From contig JAFIGD010000049.1 in NCBI GenBank assembly GCA_020831625.1, positions 1 through 35,628 on the forward strand: a stretch of DNA of 35,628 bases, in the 5' to 3' direction. The position numbers and the translations under genes are program-made. Positions 28,939-35,412 of the stretch are shown here, piece by piece (position 1 is the stretch's first letter; each line of letters begins with the position of its first letter). This DNA comes from Verrucomicrobiota bacterium (GTDB taxonomy: Bacteria > Verrucomicrobiota > Kiritimatiellia > SS1-B-03-39 > UBA6053). The notes beneath the pieces were generated by a model. The model worked only from the letters and a program-made list of their open reading frames with translations. It made no database searches and was not told where the DNA came from.

Positions 28939-29379
28939 TCAGGACTCCGCTGTCAATGGATTCCAAATTTTTTGGAAGCCGAAGGAGCGGAAATCTTTCA
29001 GGTTTACCGTGGCGAACTCAGTGACCCCGTGATGTAGAAGGGTCAGGGCTATTTTGGCATCAAAGATCCTTCGGCGCGGAAAATCCTGATCTCCTGCAAA
29101 TTGCCAAACTTGATCCATGATTGGCGCGTTTTCGATGCAGCGCCAGCGGGGGTGTCGGCGGAATCGCTGGATTACCTCCACGGCCTCTCCGGCACGTAAA
29201 GGATTCCCGGACATAACCGTTGGATTACGAAGAAGATTGTATAACTCTGTTAATACAAGTTCACAAATAACAATATCATGTTCGTTTGACCACTTCAGAA
29301 GGAATTCCCGGCATGGCTCATGATCCTTCGCCCCGGCGTTGCAGGCTAGAAATAATAGATTTGTGTCGAGGGATTTCAT
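28939..29379 (-). CDS. vapC: PIN-domain ribonuclease toxin, VapC-like
   Basis: A 146-residue PIN domain, the ribonuclease toxin of type II toxin-antitoxin pairs. The acidic active-site residues are visible: D5 in [10 protein letters not shown]45 in [12 protein letters not shown]107 in [13 protein letters not shown] and D129 in TVNLKDF. The start overlaps the antitoxin gene's stop by 4 nt (ATGA), so the toxin is made by translational coupling after its antitoxin. The 3' end faces fusA with only 7 nt between stops and no terminator. The pair is visibly less GC-rich than neighbouring genes, suggesting transfer. RNA target unknown. Confidence 0.9.
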
Positions 29380-29618
29380 CGGAGAGTATCCATATCCGCT
29401 TCGCGCTCACGCTGGATATCCTCCAGGCTGACGGTTGTGTTGTGGATCACATTCACTTTTGGCAACTCCCACGGGGCCGCCTCCAAAGCGGGATAAACAC
29501 TCACAATATATTCAAGTCCTCTGCGCATGACCTCCGCAAGGGACATTTCCCGTTCCCGGGCCACCCGTTTTGCGGCTCGGTAAAGCTCATCCGGAATTTG
29601 AACCTGTGTTTTAATCAT
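29376..29618 (-). CDS. vapB: Ribbon-helix-helix antitoxin, VapB/CopG-like
   Basis: An 80-residue antitoxin. Residues 3-39 ([20 protein letters not shown] then [17 protein letters not shown]) form a ribbon-helix-helix DNA-binding unit: a short strand followed by two helices. The charged C-terminal tail ([16 protein letters not shown]) would wrap the toxin. It should repress its own promoter as a complex with VapC, and a perfect palindrome lies exactly over the promoter and the start codon. It is translationally coupled to vapC. No Shine-Dalgarno sequence precedes the ATG, and the predicted transcript begins at or next to the start codon. Confidence 0.88.
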
Positions 29619-29658: not shown

Positions 29659-31695
29659 TTAAAGAACGCGGGAAAGGAGAAACATGGCGAAGACAACCCA
29701 GAAGATTCGCATGAGCCACCAGAGGCGCTGACGGGTGAAGGTGCTGTTTTCGGGGAAGGGCGGTTTGGCGGTGAAGGTCAGACGCTGGGCGCGGCTGAGT
29801 CTCATGCGGGAATTGATGGCCCATCCGGTGCCCTCCAGAAGCACGCTGAGATCCCGGCGGCCAAGTCGGATGGCGGCGATGACGGCACTGGGAATGAGCA
29901 CCGCGAGAATCGCCACCATGAGCCCGCCGAGGATCTGGGGGAGGGTGAGTTCGGCAAAGGTTTTGGTCATGAAGGCCAGCGAGGAGCCCATGGCGGCGAT
30001 GGCGATACCGCCGCCGGCGAGCATTTGTCCGGGGGCGGGATTCGGGGTATTGGGAGGAGGGGGAGGCGCGGTCATCACCTGTTCCGTGGATTGATCCAGA
30101 TTTTTTTCAGCGTTTTGGGTAATGCCTTCGACTTTCCGGGTCAATGTGGCGCCGATTCGCTGAAAGGGAGCGGCCATGGCCTCCGCGAGACTGACGGGAT
30201 TGTCGGAAATATGGGTCAGGGTCGCGAACCATTCGGTGCCGTCGACATGCTGAAAAAGGCCGTGCTTTCCAACACGCAGGTTTCCTTTTCTTCCCGAGGT
30301 GGCGGGAACCGCGATCTCCCGGCTTTCGGGTTGACGGGGGTGCTCCAGTTTCACAATCATGATAAACATGGTCCCGCCCTCAATCCCTTTCAAATAGTGG
30401 GCGCGGTCCGGAACCCGGACGGCGAGATTAAAGCGCCGGCCGTCCATAATCAGGGAGCCCTCCTCAAACGCGGCCCGCTGATCGGGGGCATAGAGCTTGG
30501 GAAAACTGATGAAATTATTGGCGAAATCGAGCAGACAGGCCTGAAAAAGAATCATTTTTTCGGCCAGGCGCACTTGGGTAAGATCCAATGCCGCGTGCGT
30601 CTGAGACTGAAGAAGTTTGCGGATGTCGGCGATATGCGGGCTGTTCAGCATGGAGGCGAGGTCGTCGGTTGTTAGGCCCTTCAGATAAGGCGCGGGTTCG
30701 GCCTGTCTCCATGTGGCGTAACGTTCGAACGCCTCTTTAATGTGCTGCCAGTCGGCGCGGGTCAGCACTTCATCGGTTTTATCGAACAGGGGAATGAGAA
30801 TTTCGGATCGAAGCGCATGGAGAGAGCGCGCGTATGCGGGGTTCATCCGGTTGTCCATGCGCAAAATCCCCTCGGGGTTGGGTTTTGCGGGCGGAGCCTG
30901 TTTCAGCGCGGATTCGGAGGAATGCGCGCTGGAGATGTGTTCGCTGTCGGGATGAGGCGGCCAGAGGGTCTGGACGGCCTCGGGGTTGACCGCCACCCAG
31001 TCACAGAGCGCGAAAAAGCGGTCAAGCCGGTCGCGCAACTCCATGTAGATCTCGAACGCTTTGGCGGTGTGCTCTCCCAGCGGCAAGACATCGGAGCGGT
31101 TCGTGTCGCCGGTTTCGGCAAGCCAGTCGAGGCGTCTTTTCCCGTCGTGAAGAAAGGTTGCCAGCGTGGGTTCATCGATCCCGGGTTTGCCAGAGGGGTG
31201 TGGCGTTCCCGGCATTGCGGTGAGCAGTTTTTCCATCCAGGACCGCACATTCTCACTGTCGGCCGCCGCCGGCAGCACCACGCCCGCCTCACTGACCGGA
31301 CTGGCTTCCAGCCGCTCCCGGGCTTTTCGAATTTTCGAGAGGGAAACCGATGCCGCATCCCCCCGGAAACGGTTCAGAAGCGGAATGACCTTTTGACAGT
31401 CCGGATGCGTGTCGTTCAGGCTCTCCGGTTTCAGTTCTGTGGAGCCGGATGAGAAGCCGTCAAGTGACCGGAAGCGTTCCCGAGCCCAGGCCACAGCCGC
31501 CTTGAGTTCTCCGGCTTTAATTCGTTTGTCCTGTTCGGTATCCAGACCGCGCAGAAAAACGGGGTCCATCCGAAAGGCCTCAATCGGTGCGCTGGTCGCC
31601 ACCCATAGACCTTCGTCCAATGCGCACGCCTCAAGCAGATCCTCCACGGACTCGAGTTGAGCATGGTAGGCCTGACCTTGTAAGTTGAATTGCAT
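29659..31695 (-). CDS. Large conserved-type membrane protein with an EF-hand-like loop, unknown function
   Basis: A 678-residue protein that I cannot place in a named family. Residues 52-63 (DTEQDKRIKAGE) match a 12-residue EF-hand loop at positions 1, 3, 5, 8 and 12, so calcium binding is possible. A long, mostly helical region follows to about 540, with a Pro-rich linker at 543-556. C-terminal membrane segments are at about 558-577, 586-610 and 658-677. There is no signal peptide, so the large N-terminal part is probably cytoplasmic. It stands as a single leftward gene whose stop is 5 nt before the -35 box of the toxin-antitoxin promoter. Confidence 0.75.
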   Translation of the reverse strand: MQFNLQGQAYHAQLESVEDLLEACALDEGLWVATSAPIEAFRMDPVFLRGLDTEQDKRIKAGELKAAVAWARERFRSLDGFSSGSTELKPESLNDTHPDCQKVIPLLNRFRGDAASVSLSKIRKARERLEASPVSEAGVVLPAAADSENVRSWMEKLLTAMPGTPHPSGKPGIDEPTLATFLHDGKRRLDWLAETGDTNRSDVLPLGEHTAKAFEIYMELRDRLDRFFALCDWVAVNPEAVQTLWPPHPDSEHISSAHSSESALKQAPPAKPNPEGILRMDNRMNPAYARSLHALRSEILIPLFDKTDEVLTRADWQHIKEAFERYATWRQAEPAPYLKGLTTDDLASMLNSPHIADIRKLLQSQTHAALDLTQVRLAEKMILFQACLLDFANNFISFPKLYAPDQRAAFEEGSLIMDGRRFNLAVRVPDRAHYLKGIEGGTMFIMIVKLEHPRQPESREIAVPATSGRKGNLRVGKHGLFQHVDGTEWFATLTHISDNPVSLAEAMAAPFQRIGATLTRKVEGITQNAEKNLDQSTEQVMTAPPPPPNTPNPAPGQMLAGGGIAIAAMGSSLAFMTKTFAELTLPQILGGLMVAILAVLIPSAVIAAIRLGRRDLSVLLEGTGWAINSRMRLSRAQRLTFTAKPPFPENSTFTRQRLWWLMRIFWVVFAMFLLSRVL

Positions 31696-31886: not shown

Positions 31887-32231
31887 TTATCCCTTCGGAT
31901 GATCGGAATCAGTGGTTGATGCCGGGGACGGCGGCCGGGAAGGCTTTTCTCTCACAGGCCGGGTGACGGCTCTCCGCAGAATCTCGACATACATTTCCGG
32001 CCAGGTTTCCTTGGCCGCCTTGTCGACACAGGCGATGATCTCCCCCGGTTTGACGGCCGCGGCCTCCCCGCTGGAGGGGCCGAAGCGGCAGTCGAAGTCC
32101 CAATAGTCTGTCCCCTCCGGCAGCTCCCGGTTGTTCTCCCGGCGGAGGTATTTCCGCAGTTCGTGTTTTACGGCTTCAAGATGGCGGTCGGGATGTTTTC
32201 CGGGCGGCGCGAGGGGGAAGGTTTTTTTCAT
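31887..32231 (-). CDS. DUF6172 family protein
   Basis: A 114-residue protein matching a conserved small family of unknown function (DUF6172): it opens [20 protein letters not shown] and continues [28 protein letters not shown] and [17 protein letters not shown]. The middle of these is the family's most distinctive stretch. It has no signal peptide and is basic near the N-terminus. The last 20 residues are Pro/Ser-rich. Its ATG overlaps the stop of the upstream cyclophilin gene by 4 nt, so the two are co-translated. No function is known to me. Confidence 0.85.
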
Positions 32232-32659
32232 GCTTCGCTGACAGTGACTTTGATCATTTTGTCGCCCTGGCGGATGGCGTCGACGACGTCCTGGCCTTCG
32301 GTCACCTTTCCGAAGACGGCATGTTTGTTGTCCAGCCAGGGACAGGCGACATGGGTGATGAAGAACTGCGAGCCGTTGGTGTTGGGGCCGGCGTTGGCCA
32401 TGGAGAGGATGCCGGGACCGGTGTGGCGGAGTTCGGGATGGAACTCATCCTTGAAGGTGTAGCCGGGACCGCCGGTTCCCCGTCCCTGGGGACAGCCGGT
32501 CTGAATCATGAAATCGGCAATGACGCGGTGGAACACCAGTCCGTCGTAAAAGCCTTTTTTGGCCAGGGTTTCAAAATTTTCGACGGTTTTGGGCACCTTG
32601 TCGTCGTGCAGTTGGATAACAATGGTGCCTTTATCGGTTTCGATGGTTGCTTTTTTCAT
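32228..32659 (-). CDS. Peptidyl-prolyl cis-trans isomerase, cyclophilin type
   Basis: A 143-residue single-domain cyclophilin that speeds proline isomerisation during folding. Active-site residues are in place: R45 and F50 in [15 protein letters not shown]53, NGSQFFIT (95-102) and [10 protein letters not shown] (108-117, with the His). The length is typical of the short bacterial form. No signal peptide is present, so it is cytoplasmic. It is 46 nt downstream of the ParB-like/OmpA fusion gene and overlaps the DUF6172 gene, so all three may share a transcript. Confidence 0.95.
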
Positions 32660-32705: not shown

Positions 32706-33788
32706 TTAGAGCCGCGCGGGTTGAATTTCAATTGAGACGGTCCGGTTTTTCGCTTTGTTGGAGGCCGGCGTGTTGGGGAAGGGGGGATCGCGGTCCCCGG
32801 AACTGATGGGACGCAGACGGGACGCCGGAATGCCGGCGCGGGTGGTGAGATATTGAACCACCTCCTGCGCCCGGAGTTCACCGAGGTGATCGTTGCTCTG
32901 GAACGCGCCGCCGGGACGGACGGGGTCATTGTCGGTATGGCCGATGACCACGATCAGGCAGTCGGCGCACGCGGCGGTGATGGCCTCGGCAATCCGGTTC
33001 AGGCGACGCTGTTGTGCCGGGTCGATGGTGGTCAGGCGGCTGAACACCGGCGACTGGAACACGATGCGGGGGGTGTTGTTGAGATCGCGGACTTCAATGC
33101 CGTCGATTTCGGAAAGCGCGGCCCGCCAATCACTGACGCTCTTGCGTCCGGAGGCGGTGGACGGGGTGTCAGGCCGTCTTTGCGGCGGGCGGGGTTCCGT
33201 CGGGGCGTCCGCGGAGCCGTTCACTTCGGCCGGATCCGCCGGAACTGGTTCCGGTCTCGGACCGCGGCAGCGGGAAAGGTGCAGCCCCGCCCAGAGGATC
33301 AGGATCACCGCCACCGCCAGGGTGAGAATGGATTTATAAGGCGTCTGGTGGGCGGGTCGGTTGAGTTCCTCCTCCAGGAGACCGTTCAGACGTCCGCTGG
33401 GTTTGTATTCGCCTGCGGGTTTGGCGGCGGAGGGCGGAGTCGGCGCCTGCAGTTTCCGCCGCTCGCCCATCAGATTGCTGGCGGCGTAAAACGCGGCGAT
33501 CGCGGAGTCATCCACGCGGCACAGCCGCACGGGAACCTCCTCCAGCCCGGCCTCGCGGGCCGCGGCCATCCGTTTGAACCCGGCGAGGACTTCGAGGCCC
33601 TCGGTGGTTTGACGCGCCAGCAGCGGCTGCAACACTCCATACGTGCGCACCGATTCCACCAGCGCCGGGGAAGGGGTCAGACTTTCCGGGGCGTTGGGGC
33701 CCGGACGCAGACGCGCCAGAGGAATCCGGGGCAGACGCTCGGATTGCGGGGGGGGATTGGAAGGGGGCGGGGTGTCGGAATCACTCAT
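32706..33788 (-). CDS. ParB-like domain fused to a membrane helix and an OmpA/MotB domain
   Basis: A 360-residue protein with an unusual domain order. Residues about 18-113 match the ParB/sulfiredoxin-fold N-terminal domain: LPRIPLARLRPG, SVRTYGVLQPLLARQ, EVLAGFKRMAAAREAGLEEV and ASNLMGERRKL, corresponding to the ParB boxes around GERRxRA and ENLQR. The GERR glutamate is replaced (GFKR), so CTP use is uncertain. One membrane helix follows (about 151-171, SILTLAVAVILILWAGLHL), then a Pro-rich linker, then an OmpA/MotB-like peptidoglycan-binding domain (about 245-355; IGHTDNDP, LGELRAQEVVQYL, NRTVSIEI). The layout predicts a cytoplasmic ParB-like part and a periplasmic anchor. ATG 33788 is preferred to GTG 33806. 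It lies between hisS and a cyclophilin on the same strand. Confidence 0.85.
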   Translation of the reverse strand: MSDSDTPPPSNPPPQSERLPRIPLARLRPGPNAPESLTPSPALVESVRTYGVLQPLLARQTTEGLEVLAGFKRMAAAREAGLEEVPVRLCRVDDSAIAAFYAASNLMGERRKLQAPTPPSAAKPAGEYKPSGRLNGLLEEELNRPAHQTPYKSILTLAVAVILILWAGLHLSRCRGPRPEPVPADPAEVNGSADAPTEPRPPQRRPDTPSTASGRKSVSDWRAALSEIDGIEVRDLNNTPRIVFQSPVFSRLTTIDPAQQRRLNRIAEAITAACADCLIVVIGHTDNDPVRPGGAFQSNDHLGELRAQEVVQYLTTRAGIPASRLRPISSGDRDPPFPNTPASNKAKNRTVSIEIQPARL

Positions 33789-33946
33789 AACGTTTCTTGG
33801 GATCACTTAACGCCATTTTCAGGAAAAGTGCAATCCCTCGTCGAGAAAACTTCAAAAAAGTGGATGCAGGAACCATGGACAGCCCTGCCGGACCACGGAT
33901 AGTGAACCAACGGATGGCTTGCGCCGGACAACGGATAAATTCCGAT

Positions 33947-35188: not shown

Positions 35189-35230
35189 AGAGGTCAGAGG
35201 GTAGAAATTGGTAGGGAGGGGCTTAAACTC

Positions 35231-35266
35231 GTAATCGTAATCGTAATCGTAATCGTAATCGTAATC
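35231..35266 (+). repeat. Perfect hexanucleotide tandem repeat (GTAATC)6
   Basis: Six exact copies of GTAATC, followed by GTGTTC, GTGTTC, GAGTTC, GGGTTC variants to about 35290. It lies about 40 nt upstream of the hisS start. The reverse-complement unit GATTAC occurs twice at 35297-35326, so the two tracts could pair. Confidence 0.95.
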
Positions 35267-35296
35267 GTGTTCGTGTTCGAGTTCGGGTTCGGGGGG

Positions 35297-35326
35297 ATTA
35301 AGATTACGATTAAGATTACGATTAAG
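35297..35326 (+). repeat. 12-nt-period repeat (ATTAAG ATTACG)
   Basis: attaagattacg occurs twice in tandem followed by another attaag. It is complementary in part to the (GTAATC)6 tract 31 nt before it. Confidence 0.85.
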
Positions 35327-35412
35327 AAAAGTAGGGAACGGGTTGGTTGTCGTGGACCCGAGCGGATTGATTGATAAAGGAATCCGGAGGAAATGGCAAT
35401 TCTATAGCGAGA

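Follow-up and report, generated by a model that had tools for sequence, protein, structure and literature searches.

Several known proteins come close to the one described here. In Myxococcus xanthus, the adaptor PadC recruits ParA, which binds to its ParB/Srx domain (PMC5703909); this domain has Phe at both catalytic positions (Glu and Gln) and no noticeable CTPase activity (Jalal et al., PMC8367383). HubP, which like FimV is a polar landmark protein, is LysM-anchored, crosses the membrane once and binds ParA1 (PMC8789113). In ParB itself, the N-terminal motif attaches to the ParA dimer and, together with DNA, raises its ATPase activity, more strongly so once CTP closes the ParB/Srx domains (PMC12462528). 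A survey of the ParB fold defines this ParA-binding motif as (L/F/I)G(K/R)G(L/F/I) (PMC12704722). In its main text, the survey lists fusions of the fold with HNH, UPF0020, DUF3850, methyltransferase, CBS and ASCH domains, names DUF3850 as the sole fusion found consistently next to parA, and leaves OmpA or transmembrane fusions unmentioned.

The gene considered here lies in a DNA stretch of 35,628 nucleotides, which as a whole is called the window below. It joins a ParB/Srx domain, a membrane helix and an OmpA-like domain in one protein, and its parts, together with the gene next to it, are the following.

32706..33788, (-) strand: ParB/Srx-TM-OmpA fusion gene, 360 amino acids (open reading frame, Pfam ParB_N and OmpA, AlphaFold2, orthologues, dN/dS)
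33453..33737, (-) strand: ParB/Srx (CTPase-fold) domain, residues 18-112, presumably cytoplasmic (Pfam, Spo0J matches, AlphaFold2, Foldseek)
33570..33581, (-) strand: G-F-K-R, residues 70-73, the counterpart of GERR (P-motif 2) with the catalytic Glu changed to Phe (Spo0J alignment)
33363..33395, (-) strand: GRLNGLLEEEL, residues 132-142, a conserved motif directly before the membrane helix (window-family alignment)
33270..33338, (-) strand: single transmembrane helix, residues 151-173 (AlphaFold2 helix, hydropathy)
33138..33257, (-) strand: Pro-rich disordered linker, residues 178-217 (AlphaFold2 pLDDT <50 at 183-212)
32718..33137, (-) strand: OmpA/MotB-like domain, residues 218-357, with D286 (GHTD) and R306 (LRA) (Pfam, Foldseek)
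32228..32659, (-) strand: cyclophilin-type peptidyl-prolyl isomerase, 143 amino acids, 46 bp downstream of the fusion (Pfam PF00160)

The reading frame begins with an ATG, with an alternative GTG start at 33806. A preliminary description of this DNA had read a ParB/Srx domain, a membrane helix, a Pro-rich linker and an OmpA-like domain in a single frame, and Pfam, AlphaFold2, Foldseek and hydropathy all agree with that reading. In the region where the ParB-like domain had been proposed (residues 18-113), ParB_N (PF02195) matches residues 25-100 with an E value of 9.9e-11, and OmpA (PF00691) matches residues 253-349 with an E value of 1.7e-13, both above the gathering score; Pfam gives no third domain in the protein. 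The sequence matches in the PDB are to Spo0J/ParB for residues 18-107 and to PomB/MotB/TssL-type proteins for residues about 253-356. The AlphaFold2 model, built with 16 fusion sequences, has two confident domains (residues 21-112 and 218-357) and a helix at 151-173, joined by linkers that are disordered or of low confidence; its pTM is 0.45, and the mutual placement of the domains is undefined. Foldseek places the N-terminal part with ParB bound to a CTP analogue (7bnr, 7bm8), and the C-terminal part with the periplasmic domains of PomB, MotB and PA0833. The OmpA-like domain has, besides its PF00691 match, the peptide-holding Asp and Arg (GHTD, RA): D286 and R306 are both invariant in the family to which the window belongs, and in the wider alignment A3 R306 is invariant and D286 nearly so.

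Hydropathy finds one segment of transmembrane grade (residues 153-171), as well as a borderline stretch within the OmpA core. We take the protein to be oriented with its N-terminus inside and its C-terminus outside, since it has no N-terminus resembling a signal peptide and since this placement suits the function of OmpA domains; the charges flanking the helix in the window family are ambiguous, and the positive-inside rule does not favour the N-in orientation. The protein is under strong purifying selection. Against its nearest relative (86% identity), dN is 0.105 and dS is 0.95; taken by part, dN and dS are 0.070 and 0.93 for the ParB domain and 0.040 and 0.70 for the OmpA domain, the two parts with the lowest dN, and the linker/TM part is the most divergent. 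A chance fusion or a frameshift artefact is ruled out by this selection and by the occurrence of the protein in 10 genomes.

As the preliminary description had also pointed out, the glutamate of GERR is replaced. Aligned to Spo0J, the motif reads GFKR in the fusion (GFRR in one orthologue), with F71 in the place of Glu, and the Gln of P-motif 1 is likewise changed to Ala (A33); both F71 and A33 are invariant in the window family. Among the aligned fusions of A3, the GERR Glu is lost in 16 of 16, being replaced by Phe, Ala or Arg, and the PadC-like change of Glu to Phe is seen in the window family and in G306. The same 16 sequences all retain G70, R73 and N105, which we take to be nucleotide-contact or gate positions in ParB. 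The assignment of these positions is also drawn from PMC8367383. With both hydrolysis residues replaced, the contact positions kept and PadC as a precedent, the fusion would be expected to bind CTP without turning it over.

Full-length orthologues were found in 10 of the 11 searched genomes of the window's family (Kiritimatiellota), the window's own included, and the search for ParB_N and OmpA in one protein, which the preliminary description had suggested as a way to chart the taxonomic spread, extended the finding beyond this family: profiles run against 346 genomes of the class brought up further ParB-TM-OmpA proteins. In G028, G045, G048, G062, G146 and G306, which belong to four other families, the fusion has a ParA gene directly upstream and an LGRGL motif at its N-terminus; all of them have a second ParA of the housekeeping type except G306, where the second match is a distant ATPase only. 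With the partner ParAs used as queries, and with a closer look at short OmpA proteins, the number rose to at least 14 genomes of other families, most of the genomes compared being MAGs and the counts being lower bounds, as scoring in the searches of the class and the phylum was confined to the top few candidates of each genome. A dedicated ParA followed by an LGRGL/TM/OmpA-like protein was present in 14 of 14 loci. The LGRGL stands at the very N-terminal start of these proteins and falls within the published definition of the ParA-binding motif.

The partner ParAs of these operons are distinct from the housekeeping ones. In a tree of 42 rows, all 14 form one clade (95/86) apart from the housekeeping ParAs. 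Their marker is DCSPS, at a place where the ParAs of the housekeeping kind and of the window family have DCPPS (for G045, this was read through an invariant alignment column). They keep the deviant Walker A motif and the Arg positions that Soj uses for DNA, and among solved structures ParA 8ray and the Thermus Soj come closest to them. The partner is a dedicated ParA of the DNA-binding type.

The membrane proteins in these operons vary in what they have retained. The ParB fold is kept in nine of the 14 and lost in five (G046, G049, G050, G051 and G083), which still have the LGRGL, the membrane helix and the OmpA domain. Nature has in effect made a deletion here, and it suggests that the core function is the binding of ParA. 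In G023, G084 and G088, the ParB fold is present and the OmpA domain is degenerate (two of the three were scanned with Pfam, and neither matches OmpA), so that wall binding is not universal. Taken together, the 14 loci define an invariant core of a ParA, a ParA-binding peptide and a membrane helix, to which a wall-binding domain is usually added. The origin of the cytoplasmic part is also hinted at by the G028 relative, the model of which shows, with confidence, helices at 134-165 that are left over from the ParB domain next in order, and matches ParB, Noc, KorB and PadC (6ryk); the remnant helices and the structural matches suggest that this protein is a truncation of a ParB.

The window protein has neither of the two marks of the ParA-linked family, i.e., an adjacent parA of the DCSPS clade and an N-terminal LGRGL. 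None of the window-family fusions has a parA beside it, and the LGRGL motif, or any (L/F/I)G(K/R)G(L/F/I), is absent from all 10 of them. The family has a single Soj-type ParA, which is of the housekeeping type; a search for a hidden, orphan dedicated ParA returned only this type and distant ParA-like ATPases. In the complete genome G008, the genes for ParA, the canonical ParB and the fusion are far apart (about 2.32, 3.00 and 3.55 Mb). The housekeeping parA and the canonical parB are themselves non-adjacent in G008 (L121, L163), where about 0.67 Mb separates them, and in G028 (L156, L119). A short ParA-like ATPase (245 amino acids) was also noticed in two genomes, flanked on either side by a protein resembling, on inspection by eye, a CYTH-type phosphatase (L165:3235-6426 in G004 and L164:4367-7094 in G007).

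What the window family has instead is a constant neighbour of another kind. The cyclophilin lies directly downstream of the fusion in nine of the nine family loci with enough contig room, at a gap of -4 to 120 bp, and it is found beside the fusion in none of the operonic loci of other families that were examined; the remaining neighbours vary within the window family. A second feature is the GLLEEEL stretch before the membrane helix, which is family-specific and possibly a protein-binding motif. ParB N-termini have a similar tail, G-L-G-x-L-L-E-E. A reading of GLLEEEL as a relocated ParA-binding motif was considered; the published motif is unmatched, and the reading is kept only as an idea.

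A tree of the OmpA domains, for which the fusions themselves supplied the model used to gather the rows, groups the window family with the operonic fusions (86/88; 90% of bootstrap trees), apart from the coiled-coil and other OmpA proteins of the class. The tree of the ParB domains leaves open whether those of the window family and of the operons share one origin. Descent of the window protein from a ParA-linked form is likely. Outside the class, no full-length fusion was found in 388 genomes from the rest of the window's phylum or in the phyla to which the L060 (Phycisphaerae) genome (392 genomes) and the L054 genome (395 genomes) belong, and none was found on plasmids. This absence is weak evidence, as the two outside phyla were searched without a positive control and with the best few candidates of each genome scored. 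A scan of genome contigs used patterns from the OmpA motif of the window family, which miss relatives with other GHTD contexts. Within the class, many genomes attach the same kind of TM-OmpA module to other cytoplasmic parts, long coiled coils among them (L042:31-4887, L041:329-3061, L097-L110), and so many such joins indicate that the class uses this module repeatedly to anchor diverse cytoplasmic parts.

Our best explanation for the fusion family, to which we assign a probability of roughly 0.5, is that of an envelope-anchored adaptor that docks and activates ParA, built from a ParB and held both in the inner membrane and at the cell wall. The OmpA-like domain would grip the peptidoglycan in the periplasm, as its conserved residues suggest, while the cytoplasmic side would present a ParB/Srx domain stripped of ParB's DNA-binding domain, its C-terminal domain and its CTP-hydrolysis residues. 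Such a domain probably holds CTP unhydrolysed and serves as a docking platform that is steadily closed, not as a switch. The original job of the protein, still visible in the 14 genomes, would have been to hold a dedicated ParA ATPase at the envelope and activate it, by means of the LGRGL peptide. Since dimers of ParA-ATP coat the nucleoid, a ParA binder fixed to the wall could anchor the nucleoid to the envelope, or it could clear or collect ParA there. It counts against this explanation that ParA usually serves to move cargo, which a ParB fixed to the wall would work against. In the window family, the dedicated parA and the LGRGL are gone, and the adaptor role was most likely kept by way of the ParB/Srx domain. 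With the operonic parA and the motif missing, the partner in this family is uncertain: it may be the cell's only Soj-type ParA, the housekeeping one, as in the case of PadC, or it may be something else, with the cyclophilin and whatever binds the GLLEEEL motif as candidates.

The lack of an adjacent parA and of LGRGL, together with the housekeeping type of the lone Soj-type ParA, argues against docking of ParA in the window family, and the same facts favour a ParA-independent role, in which the ParB/Srx domain would be a CTP-locked scaffold or sensor in envelope maintenance, working with the probably co-transcribed cyclophilin or with a partner of the GLLEEEL motif. The cyclophilin pairing in all nine loci, unseen in the operons, fits with such a role, as do the strong conservation of the motif before the helix and the strong purifying selection that still acts on the ParB/Srx domain. 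However, cyclophilin is a general peptidyl-prolyl isomerase without a specific link to ParB folds, and the adjacency of two genes does not establish an interaction; we consider this role somewhat unlikely. The OmpA-like domain, being closest to those of PomB, MotB and TssL, and the many proteins of the class that attach the same TM-OmpA module to other cytoplasmic parts could also suggest a stator or anchor subunit like MotB, PomB, ExbD or TssL, with the ParB fold as a mere cytoplasmic add-on to a membrane complex. The roughly 150 residues before the helix are unlike MotB-type proteins, though, and no gene resembling MotA, ExbB or TolQ, or a T6SS, is found among the profile-scanned neighbours, which makes this a poor prospect.

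The preliminary description had suggested a direct tether between a DNA- or nucleotide-linked function and peptidoglycan. Taken as a DNA tether, this would have the ParB-like domain bind DNA and fasten a chromosome or plasmid to the wall. The domain does belong to the ParB family, but the proposal did not hold up: neither Pfam nor the AlphaFold2 model has a helix-turn-helix (HTH) or a C-terminal dimerisation domain, the short stretch of residues 113-150 is disordered for the most part, no parS-like site was found within the window, and the genome has a canonical ParB at another place (G000:C32). Without an HTH, a direct hold on DNA is very unlikely. The link to DNA is more likely an indirect one, via ParA, as similar proteins elsewhere in the class adjoin a dedicated ParA and carry a ParA-binding motif. 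Both ParB-fold and OmpA domains also occur in polymorphic toxins (PMC3482391), and an envelope-anchored, ParB-type nuclease toxin can be imagined; no ParB-OmpA toxin is described in the portions of that source used here. We give this idea next to no credence: the conserved toxin motif DGHHR is GFKR in the fusion, the ParB domain is N-terminal and no secretion module is present, and the gene is conserved as a chromosomal one across the family.

If the fusion is an envelope-anchored docking protein for ParA, a wider picture can be sketched, although we hold it only tentatively and regard it as rather less than an even bet. The Kiritimatiellota would have a second, dedicated ParA system, the partner of which is a peptidoglycan-anchored membrane ParB instead of a DNA clamp, and in which ParA connects nucleoid and wall or sets the pattern of machinery fixed in the wall. 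The window family would have kept the wall-anchored, CTP-locked ParB with the housekeeping ParA, and other lineages would have reduced the partner to a ParA-binding peptide on a wall anchor. Beyond model bacteria, little is known of how the nucleoid is positioned with respect to the envelope, and a ParB with a wall anchor in place of its DNA-binding half, encoded beside its own ParA, would be a compact connection from ParA to the wall, if true. The natural series of domain losses, from the full fusion to the peptide-only and the ParB-only forms, would allow the roles of CTP, of the ParA-binding peptide and of the wall anchor to be told apart.

The window contains some other features besides the fusion and the cyclophilin. 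A PIN-domain protein (28939-29379, (-) strand) overlaps a ribbon-helix-helix gene (29376-29618, (-) strand) by 4 bp, forming a VapBC-like toxin-antitoxin pair in which the Pfam match of the ribbon-helix-helix protein is below gathering. A protein of 678 amino acids (29659-31695, (-) strand) ends in hydrophobic helices and matches nothing in Pfam and nothing credibly in NCBIfam; no ORF similar to it lies near the fusion in the relatives. Short tandem hexanucleotide repeats, (TCGTAA)n and GATTAAGATTAC, are found at 35229-35327, just upstream of hisS; similar low-complexity sequence, in an ORF, is present on the contig with the canonical parB of the same genome (L120:9572-10069).

The preliminary description knew of no system with this layout, and our literature search found no publication describing a ParB/Srx-TM-OmpA protein. 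The idea behind it is less new, as PadC and HubP cover its two halves. PadC (structure 6ryk) is like the fusion in having a ParB/Srx domain without an HTH, with the CTP-contact residues kept and the hydrolysis residues lost, and in being, as proposed for the fusion, a docking adaptor for ParA on a fixed scaffold. PadC, however, docks on bactofilins in the cytoplasm, while the scaffold of the fusion would be the cell wall, reached via the helix and the OmpA-like domain; no bactofilin gene is present among the Pfam-scanned genes of the window. HubP/FimV shares with the fusion the form of a single-pass inner-membrane protein with a periplasmic peptidoglycan-binding domain, but uses LysM and a large acidic/TPR cytoplasmic region where the fusion has OmpA and ParB/Srx; Pfam finds neither LysM nor TPR (FimV) domains in the fusion, and no sequence relation is seen.

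The anchors of the MotB, PomB, TssL and PA0833 type also have a single TM followed by an OmpA-like peptidoglycan-binding domain, and they are the best structural matches of the periplasmic part. In the MotB/PomB stator, the helix is near the N-terminus, not at residues 151-173, and MotA/PomA is the partner; no MotA/PomA-type or other ion-channel or secretion partner lies beside the fusion among the scanned window genes. The canonical ParB/Spo0J of ParABS has an N-terminal CTPase-fold domain homologous to that of the fusion, and shares LGRGL and the adjacent parA with the operonic relatives. Compared with it, the fusion has no HTH or C-terminal dimerisation domain and has lost the catalytic residues, and a membrane helix and an OmpA-like domain have been added. 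The ParB-CTPase-fold fusions of Kaljevic et al. 2025 (PMC12704722) likewise combine the ParB fold with a lineage-specific domain, and the repertoire of this fold now gains a membrane/OmpA fusion. The fusion would join two known ideas, the adaptor and the wall-anchored binding of ParA, in one protein.
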